Of a stretch of DNA of 64,000 nt, positions 10,451-47,085 are shown piece after piece. The stretch covers positions 40,743,965 to 40,807,964 of the forward strand of contig CM026557.1 in assembly GCA_015143295.1 (NCBI GenBank), read 5' to 3'. The notes under the pieces are model-generated. The model had not been told where the DNA came from and ran no database searches. It saw only the letters and a program-made list of their open reading frames with translations. How positions within the stretch are numbered: the stretch's first letter is position 1; every line of letters begins with the position of its first letter. The translations under genes and the position numbers were made by a program. The DNA is from Tetracentron sinense (Eukaryota; Streptophyta; Magnoliopsida; Trochodendrales; Trochodendraceae).

Positions 10451-10758
10451 GGAATGTTTGGACATATGGGTATTCTAGTCCAATATTTGAATAAGGTATT
10501 AAACAATTGGGGAATGCTATCCACCACTAGTCTTTTTTACCCCTTATGTATCAAATATCATCCTATTAAGTCTAAGAGTATTTTGGTATATTCAGAGGTG
10601 AGAATTCATTAAATAAGAGAGAATAAAAAAACGTTTCCTTTTCGCATTTAACATGTTTCCTATGAATATACTAAATTACCATTAACTTTAGGGGGTTTTG
10701 CTAATTAATGTTGGGTAAACCATAGCAACACCATATATATATATTTTTTGCCTTTATG

Positions 10759-22532: not shown

Positions 22533-24339
22533 ATGGTTCATTATCATAGGTATCATCAGTTGAGAAAAGGTGAAGAAGTTGGAGAAGATGATGAAGAGTC
22601 CCAAACCTTTGTTTTAGATTGTGGGGACTCTGTTTCTTACAAGAGAACAAGACCCCATATTTTACATCTTCTCTTCCTCTTCTCTATTGTCTCTTTCAGC
22701 TTAGTCTTGGTTCCTGAGCTCTTCAGCTCTTCTTCCCATCTCTCTCTTCTATGTAAGTTTTTTTCTCTCTCTTTTCTGGGTGTTCCATATTTCTTTTTCT
22801 ATATTCCTGTCTCTTAATCTCTCATTCTTACTCTCTGCAGATTCATTGGGGGTAGAAAATGAGAGTTTGATTGGTGAAAGAGAAGCAAATGCTCCCCTTT
22901 GTTCTGCAATCTCTAATGGTATGTATTCATTCTTTATTATTTAATTTTTCCTGTTGTTTTGCAATTTTCAATCAAAGTACTGAAACAGAGTGAAGAAAGG
23001 GGTGTTGTTTATTTTTTGATTAAGTTCTAAATTTTTATTCTTTTGGGGTGTAAATACAGGAAGCATTTGTTGTGATAGAAGCAGTATACGTTCGGATATC
23101 TGTTTCATGAGAGGGGATGTAAGGATACATTCTGGTTCCTCCTCAATCTTCCTTTATAGTTCTGAAAACAACAATGGTGTCTTTGATTCCCAAGAAGAGG
23201 AAGGTGAGCTACAGCACGAAAAGATTAAACCATATACTAGAAAATGGGAGACTAGTGTCATGAACACCATTGATGAGCTAGACCTTATTACCAAGAAAGG
23301 TAATTTGAGGAGCCACCATCCCTGTGAGGTTCAACACTCTGTTCCAGCTGTAGTTTTCTCGACGGGAGGGTATACTGGTAATGTTTACCATGAGTTCAAT
23401 GATGGGCTTCTTCCATTGTACATCACTTCACAGCAGCTCAACAAGCAGGTTGTGTTTGTAATGCTTGAATACCATGAATGGTGGATCACCAAGTACGGCG
23501 ATATCCTCTCACAGCTCTCTGATTATCCCCCAATTGATTTTAGCCAAGACAAGAGGACCCATTGCTTCCCCGAAGCCATTGTTGGGCTTAAAATCCATGA
23601 CGAGCTCACTGTGGATTCTTCACTAATACAGGGGAACAAGAGTATAGCAGATTTTCGAAACCTTCTTGATCAAGCATATCGGCCTCGAATAAGCGAATTA
23701 ATTCAAGAGGAAAGAGTGTTTTTATCCCCATCACCCTTAGTATCATTAGAGGAAGGGGAAGAAGAACAGGAAGAGAGATTGAAGAAGCCAAAACTTTTGA
23801 TCTTATCTCGAAATGGGTCGAGGGCGATTACAAATGAGGATGAGATGGTCAAATTGGCTGAGAAAATTGGCTTTCAAGTTGAAGTATTGAGGCCAGATCC
23901 GACAACAGAGCTGGCAAGGATCTATCGGGCTCTCAATTCAAGTGATGTCATGGTCGGAGTTCATGGCGCCGCCATGACACATTTCCTCTTTATGAAGCCT
24001 AGCACTGTCTTCATCCAAGTGACCCCACTAGGAACTGATTGGGCTGCACAGACTTACTATGGTGAACCTGCCATGAAGCTTGGCCTCAAATATGTAGGCT
24101 ACAAAATCCTCCCAAGAGAGAGCTCTTTGTATGGTGAATATGGTAAGGATGATCCTGTACTAAGAGATCCCGATAGCGTGAACGCAAAGGGGTGGGAATT
24201 CACTAAGAAGGTCTATCTGGATGGCCAGAACGTGAGATTAGATCTCAGACGATTTGGAAAACGATTGGCTCGAGCCTATGTTTACTCCATCTCCAAGAGG
24301 AACTGGCTTTATAGACAGCAATCACACAAATTTTCATAG
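22533..24339 (+). CDS. Family 61 glycosyltransferase (DUF563), Golgi type II membrane protein
   Basis: Three phase-checked exons: 22533-22752, 22841-22918 and 23060-24339, with GT-AG borders (T/GTAAGT, CTGCAG/A, G/GTATGT, TACAG/G). They encode 525 residues. An acidic cytosolic tail of about 40 residues (GEEVGEDDEE) precedes one hydrophobic segment, ILHLLFLFSIVSFSLVLVP, a signal anchor for Golgi type II topology. The lumenal domain has CDRSSIRSDICFMRGDVR, VVFSTGGYTGNVYHEFNDGL, and the family signature VGVHGAAMTHFLFMKP, then GTDWAAQTYYGEPAMKLGL. Plant GT61 members add arabinose or xylose to xylan, or act on N-glycans as core xylosyltransferase. This sequence is of the xylan type (XAT/MUCI21-like); the exact sugar cannot be told. 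Complete, with no disabling change. Only one gene is present, so no cluster. Confidence 0.95.
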
Positions 24340-26065: not shown

Positions 26066-28465
26066 TATGAGTAACACTTCCATACCCTTAGGGTACCAAA
26101 GGGTTAAGTACCTAAGAATCGTGGCCGTTCATCTGGCCACGATTTCTCCTTGTGACTGGCAGTAGCCGGTCTCAACTCTCACCCCAGAAATTTGGCGGGA
26201 GAGAAGCACTTCCATAGCTCCACTCAACCCCCTGCTCTCTCTCTCTCTCTCTTTCTACCTACGATTTGGAAACCCCTCCTCTCACAGCTCTCTCTCATCA
26301 CTCTACTCTCACGGCTCTCTCTCTCACCATCTCGCCCTCTTCACCATCTCGAGATCAAGCAATAGTAGCACCCCTCTTTGTCCCTGCAACACGAAAGCTC
26401 TCCTGGATGTGGATGTGAAACCGTAAGAAAATTTTCTCTCTCAATTCTTCACATCATTCTCTGAAGTGGGAAAGATAAGTTTTGTTTCCTGCCATTACCA
26501 CATGAAGCTCTGGTATTTTTTTTCTTTATCTCTTTCCATCTTTTATGGCTGCCAAATATAATGTGCATTTAGGTTTAATCCAGAATTTTTAAGGCTTTGC
26601 AAGCCCAGAAACTGATATGATCTAAGGGCTGAAAATCTAAACTTTTAATGGTGAGGTTAGGCCTAAAATTGTGGCTGTTTTTGAGACTTATTTTGGACTT
26701 TTATAAGAATTTTCAAAGACAGTTTGTTTTAATGGCTTTTGAACCTTAATTTTGGACTGTCATATGGGTGGTATAGGAGTTAAAACCCAGTTTTTTTGGG
26801 GTTGTTGCATGCCCGAACTAAACTCTTAAATCCCAGATTTTTGAAGTTGTTTTAACGGCCAAAATTTAGCAAATTATGGGTTGTGTTATGGTTTGACTCC
26901 AAATTAATTTACAACCCAGAATTCAAAGGTTTTCAACTTACAAGGTTTTGACGACTTAATTTTGGACTATATTGTGTGGTCATTGTAGGAATATGCACAC
27001 CCATGTCTGAGTTATGAACTGTTCTACAACCCCGAATTTGACCCTTCTAGATTTTAGGTTTATCAAGAGTCTTAGTTTAATCCAAATGAATACATATATG
27101 CCATTGTTGCAGGAATATTGAGATTCCTTTACTTGGAATGCTAGTCTTCAACTCTCTAGTCTCTCCCCTTCTAGGCCACTAGATGGAGAGCTTTCCTTAT
27201 GCCTCTTTAATGTTTAAGGTATAAGGGAGTGTTGGGATTTACTCCCATATATATATAAACTCTCAATAAAATCCTAGCCCATCAAAGACTCTAGGTCCAC
27301 AATAATGGAATGTGATTATGCTACCTAACTTGATACTTACAATTCACATCTAAGTGGGTATGTCCAATGAACCTTAATGATCACCGATCCCTCTCCACAG
27401 TTTCAACATTTTCTTCATTTTTTACTAGAGCTCTTTCATGTTGGACCTTAATTGCACCCTCTTTCACCATGTTGTACTTATGGTTTTATTGATTATAAAA
27501 CTTCTCATTAGTGTTTTACCTAAGAAAAGTGGCCAATAATCAATTCTTATAAGGTAAGAACCTCATTTCCCCTAGTTTTCTCAGTTCTCTACTAGTGCTC
27601 TTTCTTGTTGCAGTATAATTACACCCTCTTACATTATGTTGCACTTATGATTTTCTTTTTTATTATAAAACCTCTAAGTAGTATTTCTCCAAAGAAAAGT
27701 GGCCAATTTTCTATAGTTTGAGTTACATCATTTCTTCTCTCTTCTTTGTATTTCATTTGTTCTCTCTAATTCAAATTTTAGATTTGTCATCCTTGGGTTG
27801 TGATACTAATTTAAATTTCTTGTTACATCACTTATTTGCAGACTATATCAAAATGTTTTTCATATTGATGTGTTTGAATTGTGACTCAGGAAAGAAGACT
27901 AGTCATCCTGGAGTGTTGCTTGCTTCTAATGGTAGTCTAGGAGCGAAGGCATGAAGGAAAATATAGGGAGCATGGAGAGAGGAGGGGTGTTGCATCTAAT
28001 GGTAGCCTGGGGCTCAAAGAAATGATTGGCTGTATAAGAATTTTGGGGAAAGAAACGAATGACTCTATATGAATAGCTCTATTTTTTTAGAACTCTTGTA
28101 AACTTGAATTTAACATTAAGGATCATGTGATTTTGTAATTGGTGAGAATTGCTTAAATGTTATTTGTTGGGATTGGCACTTGCGTTACACAATAACAAAA
28201 TGGCTCTCAGGTGGATGTATGAACTTTTTAATGTAATAAACTACAGCTTTCCGATACAATCTCATTGTACCTTTTAGCAACTATAAAATGATATACTGGA
28301 TTAACAAATATAGCTAGTATGGATTGTTGGTCACCCGAAAGCAAACATGGGGCTATAATGTAGGTGCTGAAACTGAAAGCAGCTATATCATCATCAAGAT
28401 ATGTCACTCGAGTGGTTTAAGACTACTTCATAATGACCCTAGAAGTCTAAATTTCATTTCTCCTT
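26066..28465. other. Unclassified intergenic block
   Basis: Starts with a hairpin AATCGTGGCC-gttcatct-GGCCACGATT (about 26117-26145) and a (CT)n-rich leader-like stretch (26220-26350). Near 27420-27530 and 27590-27710 lies a tandem duplication ending AAGAAAAGTGGCCAAT. A C/T-rich leader followed by intron-like sequence suggests an untranslated transcript or a gene fragment. No coding homology was recognised. Confidence 0.4.
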
Positions 28466-28469
28466 AAAA

Positions 28470-31400
28470 AAGAACCCATTTTTTTTCATGAAAAGACTTA
28501 AATGTACCCCTTCGAGTAATAATAACCTTGGGTGCAACTCTTTCGAGGAGGGGATCATTTATGAGTAAAAATTGAGATACATTTAAGCCTTTCATAAGAA
28601 AAAATTGGATCATCTTTGAGTAAAATTGAATTTTGGACTCTTAGAGCCAACTTCGGTCTGTTTCCGAGGCCTCAGAGCTAATTGGAGTTGCACCTCAGTT
28701 GCATCGTCCTCAATAGAGTTGCACCCAAGGTTTTTTTTACTTATTGTGATACATTTAAGCCTTTTATAAAAAAAAATAGGATCATCTTTGAGTAAAATTG
28801 GATTTTGGCTTCTTAGGGCAAACTTCGGTCTGTTTCGGAGGCCTCAGGGATAGTTGGAGTTGCACCTTATATGCACCCTCCTCAATAGAGTTGTACCTAA
28901 GATTTTTTTCACTCATTGGGATATATTGAAGCATTTCATCAAAAAAAATGGGGTCATCTTTGAGGAAAACTGGATTTTGGACTCTTAGGACAAACTTCGG
29001 TCTATTTCGGAGGCCTCAGGGCTAGTTGGAGTTGCACCTTAGTTGCACCCTCCTCAATAGAGTTGCATCCAAGGTTTTTTTCACTCTTTGGGATATATTG
29101 AAGTCTTTCATAAAAAAAAATGGGGTCATCTTTGAGGAAAATTGGATTTTGGACTCTAGGGTCAACTTCAGTCTGTTTCGGAGGCCCAGGGCTAGTTGGA
29201 GTTGCACCTCAGTTGCACTCAAGGTTTTTTTCATTCATTGAAATATATTGAAACTTTAAAACAAAAAAAATGGGGTCATCTTTGAGGAAAATTGGATATT
29301 GGATTCTTAGGACAAACTTCGGTCTGTTTCGAAAGCCTCAGGGCTAGTTGGAGTTGCACCTCAGTTGCACCCTCCTCAATAGAGTTGTACCCAAGGTTTT
29401 TCTCACTCATTGGGATATATTTAAGCATTTCATTAAAAAAAATAGGGTCATTTTTTAGGAAAATTGGATTTTGGACTCTTAAGGGAAACTTCGGTTTGTT
29501 TCGAAGGCCTCAGGGCTAGTTGGAGTTGCAACTCAGTTGCACCTTCCTCAATAGAGTTGCACTCAAGGTTTTTTATACTCATTGAGATAAATTTAAGTCT
29601 TTCATAAGAAAAAATAGGATCATTTTTGAGTAAAATTGGATTTTGGACTCTTAGGATAAACTTCGGTCTGTTTTGGAGGCCTTAGGACTAGTTGGAGTTG
29701 CACCTCAGTTGCACTCTCCTCAATAAAGTTGCACCCAAGGTTTTTTTTACTAATTGGGATACATTTAAGCCTTTAATCTAAAAAAATAGGGTCATCTTGA
29801 AGGAAAATCTGAATTTGGTCCCTTAATGTCAACTTCGATCTATTTTCGAGGCCTCAAGGCTTGTTGGAGTTGCACCTCAGTTACACTGCCCTCAATAGAG
29901 TTGCACTCAAGGTTTTCTTCACTCATTGGGATACATTTAAGCCTCTCATCAGAAAAAATGAGATCATCTTTGAGTAAAATTGGATTTTGGACTCTTAGAG
30001 CCAACTTCGGTTTGTTTTCGGGGCCACAAGGTTAGTTGAAGTTGCACCTCAGTTGCACCCAAGGTTTTTTTTACTCCTTGGTATATATTTAAGCCTTTCA
30101 TCAGAAAAAATGAGATCATCTTTAAGTAAAATTATATTTTCGAATCTTAGAGCCAACTACGGTCTTATTTCGAGGCCTCAGGGCTAGTTGGAGTTGCAAC
30201 TCAGTTGCACCGTCCTCAATAGAGTTGCACCCAATGTTTTTTTTCACTAATTGGGATACATTTAAAACTTTCATTAGAAAAAATGGGATCATCTTTTTAG
30301 TAAAATTGGATTTTAGACTTTTAAATCCAACTTCGGTCTGTTTCCATGGCCTCGGGGCTAGTTGGAGTTGCACCCTCCTTAATACAGTTGTACTTAATAT
30401 TTTTTTTACTCCTTGTGATACATTTAATTCTTTCATCAGAAAAAATAAGGTCATATTTAAGGAAAATCCGGATTTGGACTCTTAATGTCAACTTTGGTCG
30501 GTTTTTGAGGGCTCAGGGCTAGTTGGAGTTGCACCTTAGTAGCACTCTTATAAATAGAGTTGCACCCAAGGTTTTTTTCACTCATTGTGATACATTTAAA
30601 TCTTTCATCAGAAAAAATGAGGTCATATTTAAGGAAAATCCGAATTTGGACTCTTAATGTTAACTTCGGTTTGTTTCCGAGACCTGAAGGTTATTTTGAG
30701 TTGCACCTCAGTTCTACCATTCTCAATGGAGTTGCAACCAAGGTTTTTTTCACTCCTTGAGATATATTTAAGCCTTTTATCTTAAAAAATGAGATCATCT
30801 TTTAGAAAAATCTGAATTTGGTCTCTTAATGTCAATTTCGGTTTGATTCTAAGGTCTCAGGGCTTGTTGGAGTTGCACCTCAGTTGCACCGTTCTCAATA
30901 AAGTTGTACCCAAGTTTTTTTTCACTCATTGGGATACATTTAAGCCTTTCATCAGAAAAAATGGGATCATCTTTGAGTAAAATTGGATTTTGGACTCTTA
31001 GAGCTAATTTTGGTCTGTTTCCGAGGCCTTGGGGCTAGTTGGAGTTGCACCGTCTTCAATAGAGTTGCACCCAAGGTTTTTTTCACTCTTTGTGATACAT
31101 TTAAGCCTTTTATAAGAAAAAATGAGATCATATTTGAGTAAAATTGGATTTTGGACTCTTAGAGCCAACTTCGGTATGTTTCTGAGGCCTCAGGGCTAGT
31201 TGAAGTTGCACCTCAGTTGCACCGTCCTCAATAGAGTTGCACCTAAGGTTTTTTTTACTCTTTGGGATACATTTAAGACTATCATTAGAAAAAATGGGAT
31301 CATCTTTTAGTAAAATTGAACTTTTGACTTTTAGAGCCAACTTCGGTCTATTTCCAAGGCCTCGGGGCTAGTTGGAGTTGCACCTCACTTGCACCCTCCT

Positions 31401-32435
31401 CAATAGAGTTGCATATAATATTTTTTTCACTCCTTGTGATACATTTAATCACTTCATTAGAAAAAATAGGGTCATATTTAAGGAAAATCCGAATTTGGAC
31501 TCTTAATGTCAACTTCGGTATGTTTTTGAGGCCTCAGGGCTAGTTGGAATTCCACCTTAGTAGCACTCTCATCAATAGAGTTACACCCAAGGTTTCTTTC
31601 ACTCCTTGGGATACATTTAAGCCTTTCGTCAGAAAAAATGGGGTCTTATTTAAGGAAAATCCGAATTTGGACTTTTAATATCAACTTCGGTCTGTTTCCG
31701 AGGCCTGAGGGCTACTTAGAGTTGCACCTTCCTCAATAGAGTTACACCCAATGTTTTTCTCACTCCTTGAGATACATTTAAGCTATTTATTTAAAAAAAT
31801 GAGGTCATCTTTAAGGAAAATCTGAATTTGGTCTCTTAATGTCAACTTCGGTCTGTTTCCGAAACCTCAGGGCTTGTTGGAGTTGCACCTCAGTTGCACC
31901 GTCCTCAATAGAGTTGCACCCAAGGTTTTTTTCATTCATTGGGATACGTTTAAGCCTTTCATCAGAAAAAATATGATCATCTTTGAGTAAAATTAGATTT
32001 TGAAATCTTAGAGCCAACTTCGGTCTGTTTCCGAGGCCTCAGGGCTAGTTGGAGTTGCACCTCAGTTGCACCGTCCTCAATAGAGTTGCACCCAAAGTTT
32101 TTTTCACTCATTCGGATATATTTAAGCCTTTCATCAAAACAAATGGAGTCATCTTTGAGAAAAATCGGATTTTGGACTCTTAGGGCAAAGTTCGCTCTGT
32201 TTCGAAGACCTCAAAGGTAGTGGGAGTTGCACCTCAGTTACACCGTCCTCAATAGAGTTTCACATAGGGTTTTTTTCACTCCTTGAGATATATTTAAGCA
32301 TTTGATTAGAAAAAATGGGATCATCTTTGAGTAAAATTGGATTTTGGACTCTTAGAGGCAACTTCGGTCTGTTTCCGAGGCCTCAGGGCTAGTTGAAGTT
32401 GCACCTCGTTGTTCCCTCCTCATTAAGTTTCCTCA
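28470..32435 (+). repeat. 172-bp satellite array 1, about 23 units
   Basis: The marker CTTCGGTCTG recurs from 28651 to 32362. Steps are mostly 172 bp, with variants of 151, 161, 174 and 182 bp; the 161 form lacks a CTCAGTTGCACC segment. A unit reads GGCCTCAGGGCTAGTTGGAG, TTGCACCTCAGTTGCACC, TCCTCAATAGAGTTGCACCC, an A/T-rich half, then TTAGAGCCAACTTCGG. Two subtypes (GAGCCAACTT and AATGTCAACTT) alternate. The first partial unit (28470-28556) is inverted. All open frames here are by-products of the unit length. Confidence 0.95.
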
Positions 32436-33320
32436 TTTTTCTCTCAAAAAGTCCTCTTTAAGTGTTAGAAACCTTGGACCCCCAAAAATTGGGTATATAA
32501 GGTGTTTGGGTTGTGAAAAAACCTGAATTAAAGATGTTTGTGCAATCTCACTCGAGTGGGTTGCTCCCGGGACTGAAAAAACGCATTGTGGTCAATCTCG
32601 CTCAAGCGAGATTCCATATCGCTCGAGGGAGATTTTCTGCAAAAACGTGCTGCAGCGTTTTGGCCGTAACTTTTGACTCCCTTATCAGATTTTGACGATT
32701 CAACTTGCGTTGGACTCGTATTTCAAAGGGAAACAACTTTCATATTTTATATAACTCCAAAATTTGAGATTTTAATTACCTAAATGGGCTTTAAAGCCGA
32801 CTGGTCTGGAAATGGGTTTCAGCAGTCCGGATTTTCAGCTGATCCGATTTCAGAAATCCAACTTTTAACTGGACCCCAACTCAAAATCTGGAAAAATGGT
32901 AAACATTAACCTTGAAGAGGGTTCCAATATCTTTCCAAAAATTGAGGAATCACTTGATTCCGATAAGAGGTGACAAAACTAGAGTTTTCTCAAGTTAATG
33001 GTATGCGAGGACATTTTTCTTTTCTTCAACTTTGATCATATTTTGATCAGTTAGAGTGTTTCACACTTTTGCCTTAACACCCTTAATCTATTCATAAAGG
33101 TCCTTAAGAACCTTAAACACATACCATGACATAGAGTGTGTTAACACTCTTTCAACCCATATTGAACTCTAACACATGTAAGGAACCCCTTTCCCATTTC
33201 TTTGACATATATTTACAGTATTTCTACTCTTAGTTTGACCCTCATGCACACCTACAACACCGTTGGGTTCTAAATTCGCACTGAGGGTATTTTATATCTT
33301 ATACTTTTAGATATTTAGAG
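32436..33320 (-). mobile_element. Older LTR, minus strand, truncated and split by a younger LTR
   Basis: On the minus strand the sequence runs from 34610 (ATAGAACCCC start) to 34492, then continues at 33320 down to about 32436. The break is the solo LTR 33321-34491. It is homologous to that LTR: both hold CCAACGCAAGTTGAATCGTC, GGAATCAAG(T/C)GATTC and GAACCCTCTTC in the same order. A TATA-like TTATATA lies at 32500-32494. About 330 bp of its 3' end are missing, and satellite resumes on both sides, so it sits within the array. Confidence 0.82.
32549..32634 (-). promoter_or_regulatory. CTCGAG-type palindromes of the older LTR
   Basis: Three palindromic sites: CACTCGAGTG (32549-32558), AATCTCGCTC-AAGCGAGATT (32594-32613, one central mismatch) and ATCGCTCGAGGGAGAT (32618-32633). 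Centres lie 50 and 21 bp apart, just upstream of the TATA on the same strand. The 33-bp spacer between sites two and three (in minus-strand order) corresponds to the spacer in the younger LTR. Confidence 0.85.
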
Positions 33321-33853
33321 TGTAGAACCCCGGATCTTGATGGCCATGTATGACGAATGATATCATATACTAAAGCATGTAAGAATGTATTTATGGTGTA
33401 TAGGTGTTTGGAATGAAATAGGCAAGAGTATAGAATACTCTTGAGTATTGACAAGGGTTATGCCTTGGCATACCCTCGACTCTAAATAGCCCTAGCGTTC
33501 ACACCGCTCGTCGGAATCAAGCGATTCTTGGATTTTTGGAAAGGTAATTGAACCCTCTTCGGGGTTCATGTTGATCACTTGTCTTGGTTTTGAGTTGGTG
33601 TTAGGTCAAAAGACCGATTTCTGAAGTCGGGTCGGTTTAAAATCTGGATTGACGAAACCCAATTTCGGATCAGTCAGGTTTAGGGGCAAAATGGTCCAAC
33701 AAAAAGGAAGAATTGGAAGTTGTGAAAAACATAAAAGTTGTTCTCCTTCGAAATATGAATCCAACGCAAGTTGAATCGTCAAAATCGGACAAGCAAGTCA
33801 AAATTTATGGCCGAGATACGAAAACCCAAAAATGCTGAAGCTTTCTGCAAAAG

Positions 33854-34041
33854 TTGCGATCGCTCGTAGGGACCCTACGAACGATCGTAGCGGAGCTACG
33901 AACGATCGTAGAGTTGCTACGATCGATCGTAAAGCCCCAGAAATGCTGGAAACTCTCGGGTGAAACTACGATTGATCGTAGGAAGCTACGATCGATCGTA
34001 GAAGGCTACGATCAATCGTAAATCGCTACGAACGATCGTAG
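33854..34041 (+). promoter_or_regulatory. Phased array of eight CTACGATCGATCGTAG palindromes
   Basis: Sites begin at 33854 (degenerate), 33875, 33896, 33917, 33966, 33986, 34006 and 34026. Each is 16 bp, CTACGAWCGATCGTAG with minor changes. Centres are spaced 21, 21, 21, 49, 20, 20 and 20 bp, giving two groups of four split by a 33-bp spacer. They end 57 bp before the TATA box of this LTR. Spacing near two helical turns puts all sites on one face of the DNA. Confidence 0.95.
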
Positions 34042-34097
34042 ATACGCGATTTTACTTTCTTGGATGCGATTTTTTAGGGGTTTTTCACCCCTTACAC

Positions 34098-34106
34098 TAT
34101 AAATAG
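34098..34106 (+). promoter_or_regulatory. LTR TATA box
   Basis: TATAAATAG in the U3 end of the solo LTR, 57 bp downstream of the palindrome array. Confidence 0.8.
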
Positions 34107-34610
34107 AAGACTTTAGGAGGATTTTTGGGTTACCCTAAACCAAGGAAAGTTCCTAGAAAGAGAAGGAAATGATCTTGAGCATTCCAAAGAGGGTTTTGCT
34201 TGAAACCAAGAAGAGCTTCAATCAAGGGTTGGATCTTCCCTTTACTTTTGTATTTTGATAGGTGGGCATGTCCACCTTTACTTTTGTGATGTATGTACAA
34301 ACTTGGAATACACAGCATGTATAGAAAAGAAATTTTTGGATTACGCTTCCGCACATTGGTTTAAGCTTCCGCCTTATTCATGATTATGTTTGTCATGACT
34401 TGGATGTTATTACAGGATGGTTTGGTATCGGATATGGCACATCACGAGCCAAAGTATCCCTAACTCCCAGGGGGTATTTCGGGTCGCGACATAGAGTATC
34501 ATTATACTCTTGTTTTGAAACTCAACATATCTCACTTCAGTTACCTCAAAGAAGCCCTGTAGACTAACACTATTCACATGAACAGTGTCTTCAAGTTTTG
34601 GGGTTCTATA

Positions 34611-34675
34611 TTCGGTCTGTTTTCGAGGCCTCAGGGCTAGTTGGAGTTGCACCCAAGGTTTTTTTTTCACTCATT
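34611..34675 (+). repeat. Detached piece of satellite array 1
   Basis: TTCGGTCTGTTTTCGAGGCC, then TCAGGGCTAGTTGGAGTTGC and ACCCAAGG follow directly after the start of the older LTR. Same orientation as array 1. Confidence 0.9.
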
Positions 34676-35860: not shown

Positions 35861-36249
35861 ACAACTTCTACAACTGAGATCTACAACAACACATAGAAAA
35901 TATAAAACACATCAATAAGTCATCAACACCTCATAAAGCATGTTAAAATATCCACAGGTACAAAATGTAATTTATCATTGCAAAATGTTATTTATCATAT
36001 AAAGTTCATATAGTAAATAAAATCATAGGTGCAATGTGTGTCATGAGGGTGCAACTACCAAAAGCTTATTGAGAATATAGAAAATTTGATTATGGCACCA
36101 TTAACTATAAGAATAACACTAGATAATGCAATTGATTATACAAGGGTGCAACAAGGGTGCAATAAGGGTGCAATCTGACACAACTTGAAAGAAAGTATTC
36201 AAAATAGTGCAAATAAAGTAAACAAGGCCACGTTCCATTATATCCATTT
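35861..36249. other. Spacer with GGGTGCAA motifs
   Basis: AT-rich; several GGGTGCAAC motifs near 36040-36170 foreshadow the satellite but are not full units. Confidence 0.4.
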
Positions 36250-39200
36250 GGTGCAACTCATTTGAGAAGGGTAGACCTAAGGTTCAACTCCAACTAGCCG
36301 CAAGGCCTCCGAAACAGACAAAAGTTTCCCCTAAGAGTCCAAAATCCAATTTTCCTCAAAATTCACCTCATTTTTTTCTAATGAAAGACTTAAATATATC
36401 CTAAGAAGTGAAAAAACATTGGGTGCAATTCTGTTCAGGAGGGTGTAACTGAGGTGCAAGTCCAACTATCCCCGAGGCCTCCGAAACAGACTCAAGTTGG
36501 CTCTAAATGTTCAAAATTCAATTTTACTAAAAGATGATCCCATTTTTTCTGATGAAAGTCTTAAATGTATTCCAATTAGTGAAAAAAACCTTGAGTACAA
36601 CTCTATTGAGGATGATGCAACTGAGGTGCAACTCCAACTAGTCTGAGACCTCGAAAACAGACCGAAGTTGGCTCTAAGAGTCCAAAATCCAATTTTACTC
36701 AAAGATGATCCCATTTTTCTGATGAAAGGCTTAAATGTATCCCATGTAGTGAAAAAAATATTGGGTGTAACTCTATTGATGAGGATGCAACTAAGGTGCA
36801 ACTCCAAGTAGCTCTGAGGCCTCCGAAACATACCGAAGTTGATTTTAAGAGTCTAAATTCTAATTTTCCTTAAAGATGACCCTATTTTTTCAAATGAAAG
36901 GCTTAAATGTATCTCAAGGAATGAAAAAAATCTTAGCTGCAACTCTATTGAGGAGGGTGCAACTGAGGTGCAACTCCAAGTAGCTCTCACGCCTCGGAAA
37001 CAGACCGAAGTTGACATTAAGAATCTAAATCCGGATTTTTCTTAAAGATGACCCCATTTTTTCTGATGAAAGGCTTAAATGTAAGCCAAGAAGTGAAAAA
37101 AACTTTGGGTGCAACTCTATTGAGGAGGGTGCAACTAAGGTGCAACTCCAAGTAGCCCTGAGACCTCCGAAACATACTGAAGTTGACTTTAAGAGTCTAA
37201 ATTCGAATTTTCCTGATGAAAGGGTTAAATGTAACCCGATAAGTCAGAAAAACCTTGGGTGCAACTCTATTCAGGACGGTGCAACTAAGGTGCAACTTGA
37301 ACTAGTCCTAATGCCTCATAAACACACCGAAGTTTACATTAAGAGTCAAAATTTGGTTTTTTCTTAAAGATGACCCCTATTTTTTCTATTGAATGGGTTA
37401 AATGTATTCCAATGAGTAAAAATAACCTTGGGTGCAACTGTATTGAGGAGAGTGCAACTGAGGTGCAACTCTAAGTAACCCTAACACCTCGTGAACACAC
37501 CGAAGTTGACATTAAGAGTCTAAATTAAGAGTTTTTTCTTAAAGATAACCTCATTTTTTATGATGAAAGAGTTAAATGTATTCCAATGAATGAAAATAAC
37601 CTTAGGTGCAACTGTATTGAGGATGGTGCAACTGAGGTGCAATTCCAAGTAGCCCTAACGCCTCGTGAACACACCGAAGTTGACAGTAAGAGTCCAAATT
37701 CAGTTTTTCCTTAAAGATAACTCCATTTTTTTTTATGAAAGACTTTAATATATTGCAGGGAGTGAGGAAAACCTTGGGTACAACTTTATTGAGGAGACTG
37801 CAACTGAGATACAACTCCAAGCAGCCCTAACGCCTCGTGAACACACCGAAGTTGACATTAAGAGCCCAAATTCAGTTTTTCCTGAAAGATGATCCCATTT
37901 TATTTGATGAAAGGCTTTAATTTATCATAATGAGTGAAAAAAGCTTTGGGTGCAACTTTATTCAGAAGGGTGCAACTGAGGTGCAACTCCAAGTAGCCCT
38001 AAGGCCCCGTAAACCCACCGATGTTCACATTAAGGGTCCAAATTCAGATTTTCCTTAAAGATGACACTATTTTTTTTTCATGAAAGGCTGAAATGTATCA
38101 CAAGGAGTGAAAAACACATGAGATGTAATTTTATAGAAGAGGGTGCAACTGAGGTGCAACTCCAAGTAGCCCTAAGGCTTCGTAAACACACCAAAGTTGA
38201 CATTAATAGTCCAAATTTAGATTTTCTTTAAAGATGACCCCAATTTTTCTGATGAAAGGGTTAAATATATTCTAATGAATGAGAAAAACCTTGGGAGCAA
38301 CTCTATTGAGGAGTGTGCAACTAAGGTGCAAGTTGAACTAGCCGTAAGGTCTCGTAAAGATACTCCAGTTCATATTAAGAGTTAAAATTCGGTTTTTAAT
38401 TGAAGATGACCCCATTTACTTTGATGAAAGGCTTCCATATATCCCAAGGAGTGAAAAAATCCTTGGGTACAACTTTATTGAGAAGGGTGAAACTTCAAGT
38501 AGCCCTAAGGCTTCGTAAACACATCGAAGTTGACATTAAGAGTCCAATTTCAGTTTTTCATGAAAGATGACCCTATTTTTTCTGTTGAAATGGTTAAATG
38601 TATCCCAATAAGTGAAAAAAACTTTGGGTGCAACTCTATTGAGGATGGTGCAACTGAGGTGCAACTCTAAGTAGCCCTAACGCCTTGTGAACACACCGAA
38701 GTTGACCTTAAGATTCATAATTCGATTTTTCCTTAAAGATGACCCCATTTTATTTCATGAAATGCTTTAATATATCGCAAAGAGTTTTTTTACTTCTTTG
38801 GTACAACTCTATTGAGGAGGGTGCAACTGAGGTGCAACTCGAAAAAGCCCTAACGCCTCGTGAACACACCGATTTTTCCTTAAAGATGACCGAATTTTTT
38901 CTGATGAAATGGTTAAATGTATCCTAATGAGTGAGAAAAACCTGGGGTGCAATTCTATTGAGGAGGATGCAACTGACGTGCAACTCTAAGTAGCCTTAAG
39001 ACCTCGTAAACACACTGAAGTTGACATTAAGAGTCGAACCTCGGTTTTTCTTTAAAGATGACCTCATTTTTTCCAGTGAAATAGTTAAATGTATCCCAAT
39101 GAGTAAAAATAACCTTTGGTACAACTCTATTGAGGAGGGTGCAACTGAGGTGCAACTCTAAGTAGCATTAACGCCTCGTGAACACATCGAAATTGACATT

Positions 39201-40900
39201 GAGGGTCCAAATTCGGTTTTTCTTTAAAGATGATCCCATTTTCTTTGATGAAAGACTTTAGTATATTGCAAGGAGTGAAAAAAACCTTGGGTGCAACTCT
39301 ATTGAGGAGAGTGCAACTGAGGTGCAACTCCAAGTATCCCTAAGGCCTCGTAAACACACCGAAGTTGATATTAAGAGTCCAACTTTGATTTTTCCTTAAA
39401 TATGATCCTATTTTTTCTGTTGGAATGGTTAAATGTATCCCAATAAATGAAAATAACCTTGAGTATAACTCTATTGAGGAGGGTGCAACTGAGGTGGAAC
39501 TCCAAGTAGCTCTAAGGCCTCGTGAACACACCGAAGTTCACATTAAGAGTCCAAATTCGATTTTTTCTTAAAGATGACACAATTTTATTTAATTAAAGGT
39601 TTTAATATATCGTAAGGAATTAAAAAAACCTTGGGTGCAACTCTATTGAGGAGTGTGAAACTGAGGTGCAACTCCAAGTAGCCCTAAGGTTTCATAAACA
39701 TACCTAAGTTGACATTAAGAGTCCAAATACGGATTGTCCTTAAAGATGACCTCATTTTTCCTGATAAATTATTAAATGTATCCCAGTGAGTGAAAAAAAC
39801 CTTAGGTGCAACTCTATTGAGAACGGTGCAACTGAGGTATAACTCGAATTAGCCGTAAGGCCTCGTAAACATATCCAAGGTTACATTAAGAGTCCAAATT
39901 CGGTTTTCCCTTAAAGATGACCTAATTTTATTTGATGAAAGGCTTTAAGATATCCCATTGAGTAAAAAAACTCTTAGATACAATTCTGTTGAGGAGGGTG
40001 CAACTGGGGTGCAACTCAAAGTTGTCCTAAGGCCTCGTAAACACACCAAAGTTGATATTAAGAGTGGGTACTTCGAATTTTTCCTTAAAGATGACTCCAT
40101 TTTTTTATTGAGTGGGTTAAATGTATTCCAATGAGTGAAAAGAACATTGGGTGTAACTCTATTGAGGAGGGTGCAACTGAGGTGCAACTCCAAGTAGCCG
40201 TAACGCCTCGTGAACACACCGAAGTTGACATTAAGAGTTCAAATTCGGTTTTTCCTTAAAGATGACCTCATTTTCTTTGATAAAACTGTTTTAATATATC
40301 GCAAGTAGTGAAAAAAATATTGCGTGCAACTCTATTGAGGAGTGTGCAACTGAGGTGCAACTACAAGTAGCCCTAAGGCCTCGTAAACAAACCAAAGTTT
40401 ACATTAAGAGTCTAAATACGGGTTTTCTTTAAAGATGACCCTATTTTCCTGATGAGATTGTTAAATGTTTGCTAATGAGTGAAAAAACCTTTTGTGCAAC
40501 TCTATTAAGGAGAATGTAACTAAGGTGCAACTCGAACTAGCCATAAGGCCTCGTAAACATACCCAAGTTGACATTAAGAGTCCAAATTCAGTTTTTCCTT
40601 AAAGATGACCCCATTTTCTTTGATGAAAGGCTTCAATATATCACAAGAAGTTGAAAAAGGCTTGGGTGCAACTCTATTAAGGAGGGTGCAACTAAGGTGC
40701 AACTCGAACTAGACCTAAGGCCTCGTGAACACACCGAAGTTGACATTAAGAGTCAAAATTCTAATTTTCCTTAAGGATGACCCTATTTTCTTTGATGAAA
40801 GGCTTTAATATATCTCAAGGAGTGAAAAATATCTTGGGTGCAACTCTATTGAGGAGGGTGTAACTGAGGTGGAACTCCAAGTAGCCCAAATTCAATTTTT
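36250..40900 (-). repeat. 172-bp satellite array 2, inverted, about 27 units
   Basis: The same monomer as array 1, read on the minus strand; each unit starts GGTGCAACTCTATTGAGGAG on the plus strand. Steps are about 170-172 bp. The first units (to about 36700) have the GCTCTAAGAGTCC/CAGACCGAAGTTGG form of array 1. Distal units change to TCGTAAACACACCGAAGTTG and CTCGTGAACACACC. Short deletions occur near 37200, 38480 and 38870. Confidence 0.95.
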
Positions 40901-46264: not shown

Positions 46265-46376
46265 CCTATTTGAGGAGCGAGGTGGCCTTTTAAGCTCGTG
46301 CTGAGGAGCGATGTGGCCTTTTAAGCTCGTGCTGAGGAGCGAGGTGGCCTTTTAAGCTCGTGCTGAGGAGCCTGGC
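46265..46376 (-). repeat. 31-bp minisatellite, 3-4 units
   Basis: Unit TGAGGAGCGAGGTGGCCTTT-TAAGCTCGTGC repeated nearly without change. Confidence 0.9.
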
Positions 46377-46426
46377 GAGGTAGGGATTTGAACTGAGGCT
46401 CTGACGAGGGTTTGAATAGATTGGGT

Positions 46427-46745
46427 TTAACTAGAGTTTAACTAGGGTTTACCTAGGGTTAACTAGGGCTTAATCAGGGTTTAACTAGAGTTTAACTAGG
46501 GTTTACCTAGGGTTAACTAGGGCTTAATCAGAGTTTAACTAGAGTTAACTGGAATTAACTAAGGTTAACTGGGTTTAACTAGGATTAACTGGAGTTAACT
46601 AGGGTTAACTGGGATTAACTGGGATTAACTGGGTTTAACTGGGATTAACTGGGATTAACTGGGGTTAACTAGGGTTAACTGGGTTTAACTGGGATTAACT
46701 AAGATTTAACTAGAGTTGACTGGGATTAACTGGGTTTAACTAGGG
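46427..46745 (-). repeat. 10-11-bp minisatellite, about 30 units
   Basis: GGGATTAACT and GGGTTTAACTA variants in tandem, with a higher-order duplication near 46435-46530. Confidence 0.9.
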
Positions 46746-46754
46746 CTTTAATCG

Positions 46755-47085
46755 GACAGAGGTTTGGCTAGGCAAGGCAAGTTTTGAACTGGGATTTTGG
46801 GCAGAGGTTCGACTAGGCAGCGCTAGTTTTTAACCGGGATTTGGGCAGAGGTTTGACTAGGCGAGGCTAGTTTTTAGCCGAGATTTGGGCAGAGGTTTGA
46901 CTAGGCGAGGCTATATTTGAACCGGGATTTGGGCAGGGGTTTGACTAGGCGAGGCTATATTTGAACCGGAATTTGGGCAGAAGTTCGACTAGGCAAGGCT
47001 ATATTTGAACCGGAATTTGGGCAGAGGTTCGACTAGGCGAGGCTATATTTGAACCGGAATTTGGGCAGAGGTTCGACAGGCAAGC
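46755..47085 (-). repeat. 44-bp minisatellite, about 8 units
   Basis: Unit contains GGGCAGAGGTTTGACTAGGC, GAGGCTATATTTGAACCGGA and ATTT. Units become more alike toward 47085. Confidence 0.92.

Follow-up and report, generated by a model that had tools for sequence, protein, structure and literature searches.

Introduction

Arrays of palindromes in the LTRs of plant retrotransposons are known from the Sireviruses, a group within the Ty1/copia elements. The LTRs of Sireviruses contain palindromic motifs (RM) before the TATA box, next to CpG islands (PMC2829016). These RM differ between elements, are present in at least eight copies per element and, in the part of that account drawn on here, have a CGG-CCG core in all elements except Tnd-1. 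Among the Ty1/copia elements that were compared, the RM were called Sirevirus-specific (Bousios et al. 2010, PMC2829016). A second relevant system is that of Tnt1, Retrolyc1 and Retrosol, which have like bodies but different U3 regulatory regions, the U3 being regarded as a separate module (PMC1838419). A third is that of the VANDAL elements, which are DNA transposons with an encoded protein, VANC; the motif of VANC21 is 9 bp long, i.e., YAGTATTAC or YAGTATTAT (PMC5735166; PMC10398659).

Here, palindrome arrays are described from the LTRs of a retrotransposon family of Tetracentron sinense. Like the Sirevirus LTRs, as portrayed in the excerpted source, these LTRs have multiple near-identical palindromes before the TATA box, with a motif that varies between elements, and the motif of Tnd-1 (ACAATCGATTGT) has ATCGAT in common with one of the Tetracentron motifs (type A, see below). 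Unlike the Sireviruses, the Tetracentron elements are Ty3/gypsy by their domains and domain order (in two type A elements); their arms (TACGA, TGCGA, ACCGA, CAACG and CTCGC) are without the CGG-CCG core, type D starting with ACCG and ending with CGGT, so that CCG comes first and CGG last; and related LTRs within a single genome carry several different motif types. Because they are Ty3/gypsy, the Tetracentron arrays fall outside both the Sirevirus and the Tnt1 groups, though they may work alike. With Tnt1 they would have in common a U3 that evolves as a module, as is proposed below. The differences are that Tnt1 is a Ty1/copia element for which the available part of the account describes no shared palindrome geometry, and that in Tetracentron the conflict lies inside one LTR, between the sequence upstream and the sequence downstream of the array. 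With VANDAL, as presented in the sections of the sources used, the likeness is in noncoding tandem motif arrays that vary from one related element to another, their motifs changing jointly; the difference is that the encoded protein is known there, whereas none was seen among the main ORFs of two Tetracentron copies. The comparison with VANC may serve as a lead. Among the literature matches listed (open-licence papers), there was no description of such arrays in Ty3/gypsy LTRs, and a scan of viral contigs for the paired sites gave 0 matches.

Materials and Methods

The window, i.e., the whole stretch of 64,000 bp that was analysed, is C7:40743965-40807964 of the 1.16 Gb assembly of Tetracentron sinense, in which all of it was found. 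The motif of type A occurs at 10,555 places in the genome within one mismatch, compared with 12 places for its reversed control. Sixty-three loci were read: 44 chosen from the list of A motif places (4 + 20 + 20), 7 neighbours, and 12 blind pieces of 5 kb. These loci and the window were searched with four flank queries, giving 64 rows that represent 61 distinct LTR places including the two of the window. Both LTRs of several elements entered as separate rows, and all 61 LTRs except L063 and the window's two are on contig C1; the sample is biased to type A and to C1.

Trees were made for 57 LTRs (48 A, 6 D, 2 C, 1 B), from 330 bp upstream and from 190 bp downstream of the array. Two E LTRs (type E being unusable for the downstream tree), one LTR cut by the end of its piece (L056) and one A row whose upstream part is short were left out. 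The trees come from quick searches, have SH-aLRT support only and some long branches, and are based on short and diverged alignments.

Results

The Two Arrays of the Window

The window has two LTRs of this kind, a younger solo LTR on the plus strand (target-site duplication TAGAG) being nested within an older LTR on the minus strand (Table 1). The feature is real and well patterned. In the nested LTR, eight sites resembling CTACGATCGATCGTAG with at most 3 mismatches were found at 33854-34041 on the plus strand, where 0.04 would be expected from shuffles; mismatches number 0 in one site, 1 in five, 2 in one and 3 in one, and the distances between their centres are 21, 21, 21, 49, 20, 20 and 20 bp. 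The outer LTR has three AATCTCGCTCGAGCGAGATT-like sites on the minus strand, with centre distances of 21 and 50 bp. Both arrays are in the same place, i.e., between a 20-bp flank (CCAACGCAAGTTGAATCGTC) that is identical in the two LTRs and the TATA box, which in the nested LTR is 57 bp past the final palindrome. Thus, the palindromes, spacings, common flank and corresponding position reported in the initial annotation were all recovered.

Table 1. Positions of the features in the window (1-based; position 1 is the first base of the window).
Feature	Position	Strand	Basis or remark
Glycosyltransferase gene	23107-24339		100% identity to HHK36_011867 of Tetracentron sinense
Outer LTR remainder, type B, apparently 3′-truncated	32430..33315	-	
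TATA-like box (TATATA) of outer LTR	32494..32499	-	read from sequence
Outer palindrome 3, CAACCCACTCGAGTGAGATT	32544..32563	-	
Outer spacer	32564..32593	-	
Outer palindrome 2, AATCTCGCTTGAGCGAGATT	32594..32613	-	
Outer palindrome 1, AATCTCCCTCGAGCGATATG	32615..32634	-	
Conserved flank of outer LTR	32694..32713	-	identical to CCAACGCAAGTTGAATCGTC
Target-site duplication TAGAG, left copy	33316..33320	.	read from sequence, equals 34492-34496
Nested solo LTR, type A, TGTAGAACCCC...GGGTCGCGACA	33321..34491	+	start positions of matching copies
Conserved upstream flank, CCAACGCAAGTTGAATCGTC	33761..33780	+	identical in both LTRs
Palindrome group 1, four sites, pitch 21	33854..33932	+	
33-bp spacer	33933..33965	+	likeness to outer spacer weak
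Palindrome group 2, four sites, pitch 20	33966..34041	+	
TATA box TATAAATA of nested LTR	34098..34105	+	read from sequence
Target-site duplication TAGAG, right copy	34492..34496	.	
Outer LTR 5′ part, TATAGAACCCC...	34497..34610	-	ends where satellite resumes

Upstream of the arrays, the nested and outer LTRs are 73% identical over 353 bp (K2P 0.31), and the likeness of the adjoining 5′ flank was reached by 24 of 5000 shuffles in global and 30 of 5000 in local alignment. The 33-bp spacer between the palindrome groups had also been described as homologous. There is a likeness, but it is weak when taken alone, as 347 of 5000 shuffles reached the global and 3439 of 5000 the local score, and on these counts the spacer was dropped as strong stand-alone evidence. 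For the 3′ flank up to the TATA box, the local score was reached by 22 and the global score by 737 of 5000 shuffles; past the arrays, the resemblance between the two LTRs is loose.

At 10.5 bp per turn, the four sites of group 1 in the nested LTR have helix phases of 0, 0, 0 and 0 degrees and those of group 2 have phases of 240, 206, 171 and 137 degrees, so group 2 begins 240 degrees off group 1 and each successive site shifts by a further 34 degrees or so; the sites of the outer LTR are at 0, 0 and 274 degrees. A reading of all sites on one face of the helix, as first suggested, is ruled out by these phases of group 2 and is contradicted by the third outer site. The nested and outer motifs both have CpGs at -4, 0 and +4 and have CG.TCGA.CG in common, a likeness close to what chance gives (p=0.17 for the half-site match and p=0.036 for the CpG layout). 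Of the claim that the motif had changed everywhere while the geometry stayed, the switch of type on a kept layout stands, but the motifs are not wholly different, since CG.TCGA.CG is shared.

Array Types Across the Sampled LTRs

At least three sites were found in 60 of the 61 LTRs; the remaining one, L056, runs off the end of its piece, and its visible sequence is E-like. Five types of array were distinguished by their arms: A (TACGA N4 TCGTA), B (CTCGC N4 GCGAG), C (TGCGA N4 TCGCA), D (ACCGA N4 TCGGT) and E (CAACG N4 CGTTG). There are 49 A, 6 D, 2 C, 2 E and 1 B among the 60 LTRs. The 12 blind pieces had three such LTRs, i.e., two D and the cut E-like one, and no A; thus, the majority of A reflects the search route. 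Types A and C are only one base apart per arm, so a stepwise change between them would be easy; B and E are further off.

By the five-motif count, in which a lone A site passes as C and further types are invisible, no separate site of a foreign type was found in the 60 arrays. By eye, one of the nine sites in the C array of L019 is CTACGATCGATCGTAG, and 20 of the 335 sites in A arrays are half-hybrids of C and A. An LTR typed as D, L049, has the centres GAGC, GAGA, TCGA and TAGA. The number of sites per A array ranges from 4 to 10 (49 arrays).

The gaps between sites in A arrays are 19-23 bp in 223 of 290 cases and 47-53 bp in 52; nine are 16 bp and six are others. In C arrays, 11 of 15 gaps are 20-22 bp, 2 are 52-53 bp and 2 are 71 bp; in D arrays, 24 of 29 are 19-21 bp and 5 are 71 bp (by eye 20 + 51, with a decayed site); in E arrays, 11 of 13 are 21-23 bp and 2 are 33-34 bp, with no jump of about 50 bp; and in B, represented by the outer LTR of the window alone, the gaps are 21 and 50 bp. 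A pitch of about 20/21 bp is therefore common to all five types, and the jump of 47-53 bp is seen directly in A, B and C only. Within a copy, nearly all sites are of one type; from LTR to LTR the type changes and the pitch persists, as the initial annotation had anticipated. That annotation had named two signs that would speak against it: the first, mixing of types within an array, occurs in part (L019 and the 20 hybrids among 335 sites), and the second, random spacing, was not seen in these arrays.

Two further arrangements were observed. L007 (plus strand, at about 980-1200) represents an A-type subfamily in which two spacers separate three palindrome groups, the gaps being 21, 16, 49, 21, 50 and 21 bp. 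In L047 (minus strand, at about 559-900), the LTR start TGTAGAACCCC interrupts an E-type array, a nested insertion directly within the array.

Anatomy of the Sites

In the nested array of the window, 10 of 128 site bases are off the column majority, compared with 11 of 27 bases of the short linkers (Fisher p=7e-5). Conservation within type A was determined from 335 sites in 49 distinct A arrays, by a score that weights all 16 positions alike. Positions 2, 6, 11, 14 and 15 have the consensus base in 98-100% of sites and positions 3, 4, 5, 12 and 13 in 93-95%; the outermost positions, 1 and 16, have it in 75 and 79%, and centre position 7 in 55%. The central CpG (positions 8-9) is conserved in 88-92% of sites, so the looseness of the centre is mainly at one base. 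When C>T and G>A are set aside, position 7 has 152 changes, position 3 has 23 and position 10 has 22, and each of the remaining positions has at most 10. The centre is also variable in types C, D and E, where the contrast between arms and centre is partly built in, because the finder scored the arms only.

Conserved arms, together with a variable centre and variable linkers, fit an inverted-repeat site, and the type A unit could be such a putative site for a dimeric protein. A dimeric DNA-binding protein had been proposed from the palindromes of the window; the anatomy of the sites agrees with that proposal, and it is from this anatomy that we infer binding.

Element Identity and Coding Content

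Two elements with type A LTRs, L029 and L031, both encode Retrotrans_gag, RVP_2, RVT_1, RNase H, Integrase_H2C2 and SH3_Tf2-1, and in both the integrase follows the reverse transcriptase and RNase H, which is the gag-pol order of Ty3 type. The type A elements are Ty3/gypsy. A candidate chromodomain (PF00385) in L029 has E=2.5e-5 and 24.6 bits, just under the curated Pfam cut-off of 25.1, and none was found by a search of L031. The group is chromovirus-like and probably of the Del/Tekay type.

The ATG ORFs of L031 of at least 80 amino acids are gag, two pieces of pol, one ORF antisense to pol, and two ORFs at the 5′ edge of the fetched sequence. In a weak test, no VANC-like protein was seen among the main ORFs of the two autonomous copies, L031 and L029. 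Four other A-type elements (L025-L028) have direct repeats of more than 2.6 kb and no stop-to-stop ORF of at least 150 codons in the fetched stretches; by their sequence, they are apparently non-autonomous.

Conflict Between the Upstream and Downstream Trees

In the upstream tree, a single A clade is rejected (p=7e-6), as is a single D clade (p=0.002), and C forms a clade (98). In the downstream tree, D and C are clades (100 each) and a single A clade is compatible with the data (p=0.34). The types require 4 changes on the 5′ tree and 3 on the 3′ tree; no tree could need fewer than 3. In these bare change counts the conflict between the 5′ and 3′ trees is small, and C is a clade on both.

Some LTRs show the conflict individually. 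L049 is a mosaic, its closest LTRs being of type A upstream (81%) and of type D downstream (72%). L005, L006 and L013 are with D and E upstream and with A downstream, where forcing them with D is rejected only at p=0.0485. The outer (B) LTR of the window groups upstream with four A-type LTRs (SH-aLRT 99), and its best identity to any sampled row downstream is 51-55%. This outer LTR is only a possible recombinant, as forcing it with its four 5′ sisters on the 3′ tree is compatible (p=0.20) and its local likeness to the nested LTR up to the TATA box is that given above (22/5000).

In the sample, the array thus follows the downstream sequence better than it follows the upstream backbone, which goes against a replacement of palindromes between two constant flanks, the process originally envisaged. 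Since the array tracks the downstream sequence, recombination of modules explains the exchange of the palindromes as a set without coevolution motif by motif. On the simplest reading, recombination seems to move the array as one piece with the core promoter, and the breakpoints would lie within or close to the conserved upstream flank. What is retained of the original proposal is the exchange as a set on a kept layout; its mechanism is in the main replaced by module recombination.

Proposed Exchange of Promoter Modules and Alternative Explanations

For the directly observed arrays, their spacing and types, the conservation of the type A arms and the conflict between the 5′ and 3′ trees, the likely explanation is that palindrome modules in the U3 of Ty3/gypsy elements are read by a protein and have been exchanged, together with the downstream promoter, between LTR backbones by recombination. 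The arrays would be an enhancer or silencer module of U3, located upstream in the LTRs of a chromovirus-like Ty3/gypsy family of Tetracentron. The unit consists of two inverted arms, each about 5 bp long, on either side of a loose 4-bp centre; it is repeated every 20-21 bp (19-23 bp over the types), and in many arrays the units form groups about 50 bp apart. A sequence-specific and probably dimeric protein would read the sites and set transcription from the TATA box, which is about 45-57 bp downstream of the sites in the two LTRs of the window. The array and the downstream promoter would be swapped between backbones as one module, probably when reverse transcriptase switches templates at the conserved upstream flank. 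Repeat turnover together with selection on the arms would keep the sites of one module alike.

Possibly, the arrays act through RNA or silencing instead, hairpins of the U3 transcript feeding small RNAs or the arrays being targets of CpG methylation, a role that has been proposed for Sireviruses of maize. The RNA of the nested array is predicted to fold with -103.3 kcal/mol (z -9.4 versus shuffles) and the CpG observed/expected ratio is 2.13 in the nested array versus 0.72 in the rest of the LTR (bounded from 33137), so such a role is conceivable; in addition, palindrome-rich regions of Sirevirus LTRs are small-RNA hotspots in the portions of the reports drawn on here (PMC10760457, PMC5311732). 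A perfect hairpin, however, needs its centre, yet centre position 7 is the most variable base; hairpins need no fixed pitch of 20/21 bp, and the folding could be a by-product of binding sites; and the observed/expected ratio in the outer array is only 1.08. This explanation is considered unlikely.

Coevolution would be a different route to the same pattern: a subfamily-specific protein, either VANC-like and encoded by the element or zinc-finger-like and encoded by the host, would change with the motif, whereby specificity is switched and host control escaped. The five arm sequences in one place with a pitch in common are in its favour, as is the near uniformity of type inside each copy, and in VANDAL21, too, the tandem VANC targets vary from one subgroup to another and have diverged jointly, as reported in the part of the source used (PMC5735166). 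Against it, the switches between backbones are accounted for by module recombination, and the ORFs of L031 are those of gag, pol pieces, pol antisense and the two at the 5′ edge. Coevolution is therefore regarded as doubtful. So is a scheme in which the types are interchangeable cassettes on a common layout, each read by its own protein of the host or the element, specificity being changed in one recombination step. Least probable of all is a neutral turnover in which slippage and gene conversion amplified a chance palindrome without function, for although short tandem arrays expand easily and the A arrays vary in site number as given above, the linkers in the window array are unlike each other while the arms are conserved, and the several arm sequences are all palindromic, with the same pitch and in the same place.

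Palindromic LTR arrays are now seen in Ty3/gypsy elements, beside the Sireviruses of Ty1/copia, even if only host transcription factors act on them, and the case separates change of a motif from transfer of a motif. If the modules bind distinct proteins, related backbones in this one genome would carry no fewer than five promoter addresses, a natural set with thousands of sites of type A alone and with apparent recombinants. In that event, they would allow a direct test of retrotransposon escape by module swapping.

Limits of the LTRs and Surroundings of the Locus

The start of the nested LTR was set from matching copies: eight of nine matching rows (94.7-97.8% identity, two of the nine being one genomic place fetched twice) begin at 33321 and one begins at 33317. 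The rows of L026-L028, with 91-93% identity to the nested LTR, begin only at 33460. An earlier candidate start at 33137 was dropped, as the closest copies start at 33321, and the TAGAG at 33132-33136 was dropped as the left copy of the target-site duplication after those starts had been seen. The homology of the nine close copies to the nested LTR ends at 34240 (at 34230 for one of them). The stretch 34225-34491 matches only L051 (72%), which has a D-type LTR. Judged by these matches, the nested LTR with its L051-like 3′ part is a shortened or recombinant LTR. On the 5′ side of the outer LTR, 28 of 59 satellite matches have the satellite restarting at 34611.

Both LTRs are located inside a satellite array with a unit of 172 bp. 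The 172-bp arrays at 28410-32429 and 36245-40887 that flank the LTRs have opposite orientations on either side, and a minisatellite cluster with units of 31, 10 and 44 bp is located at 46271-47081.
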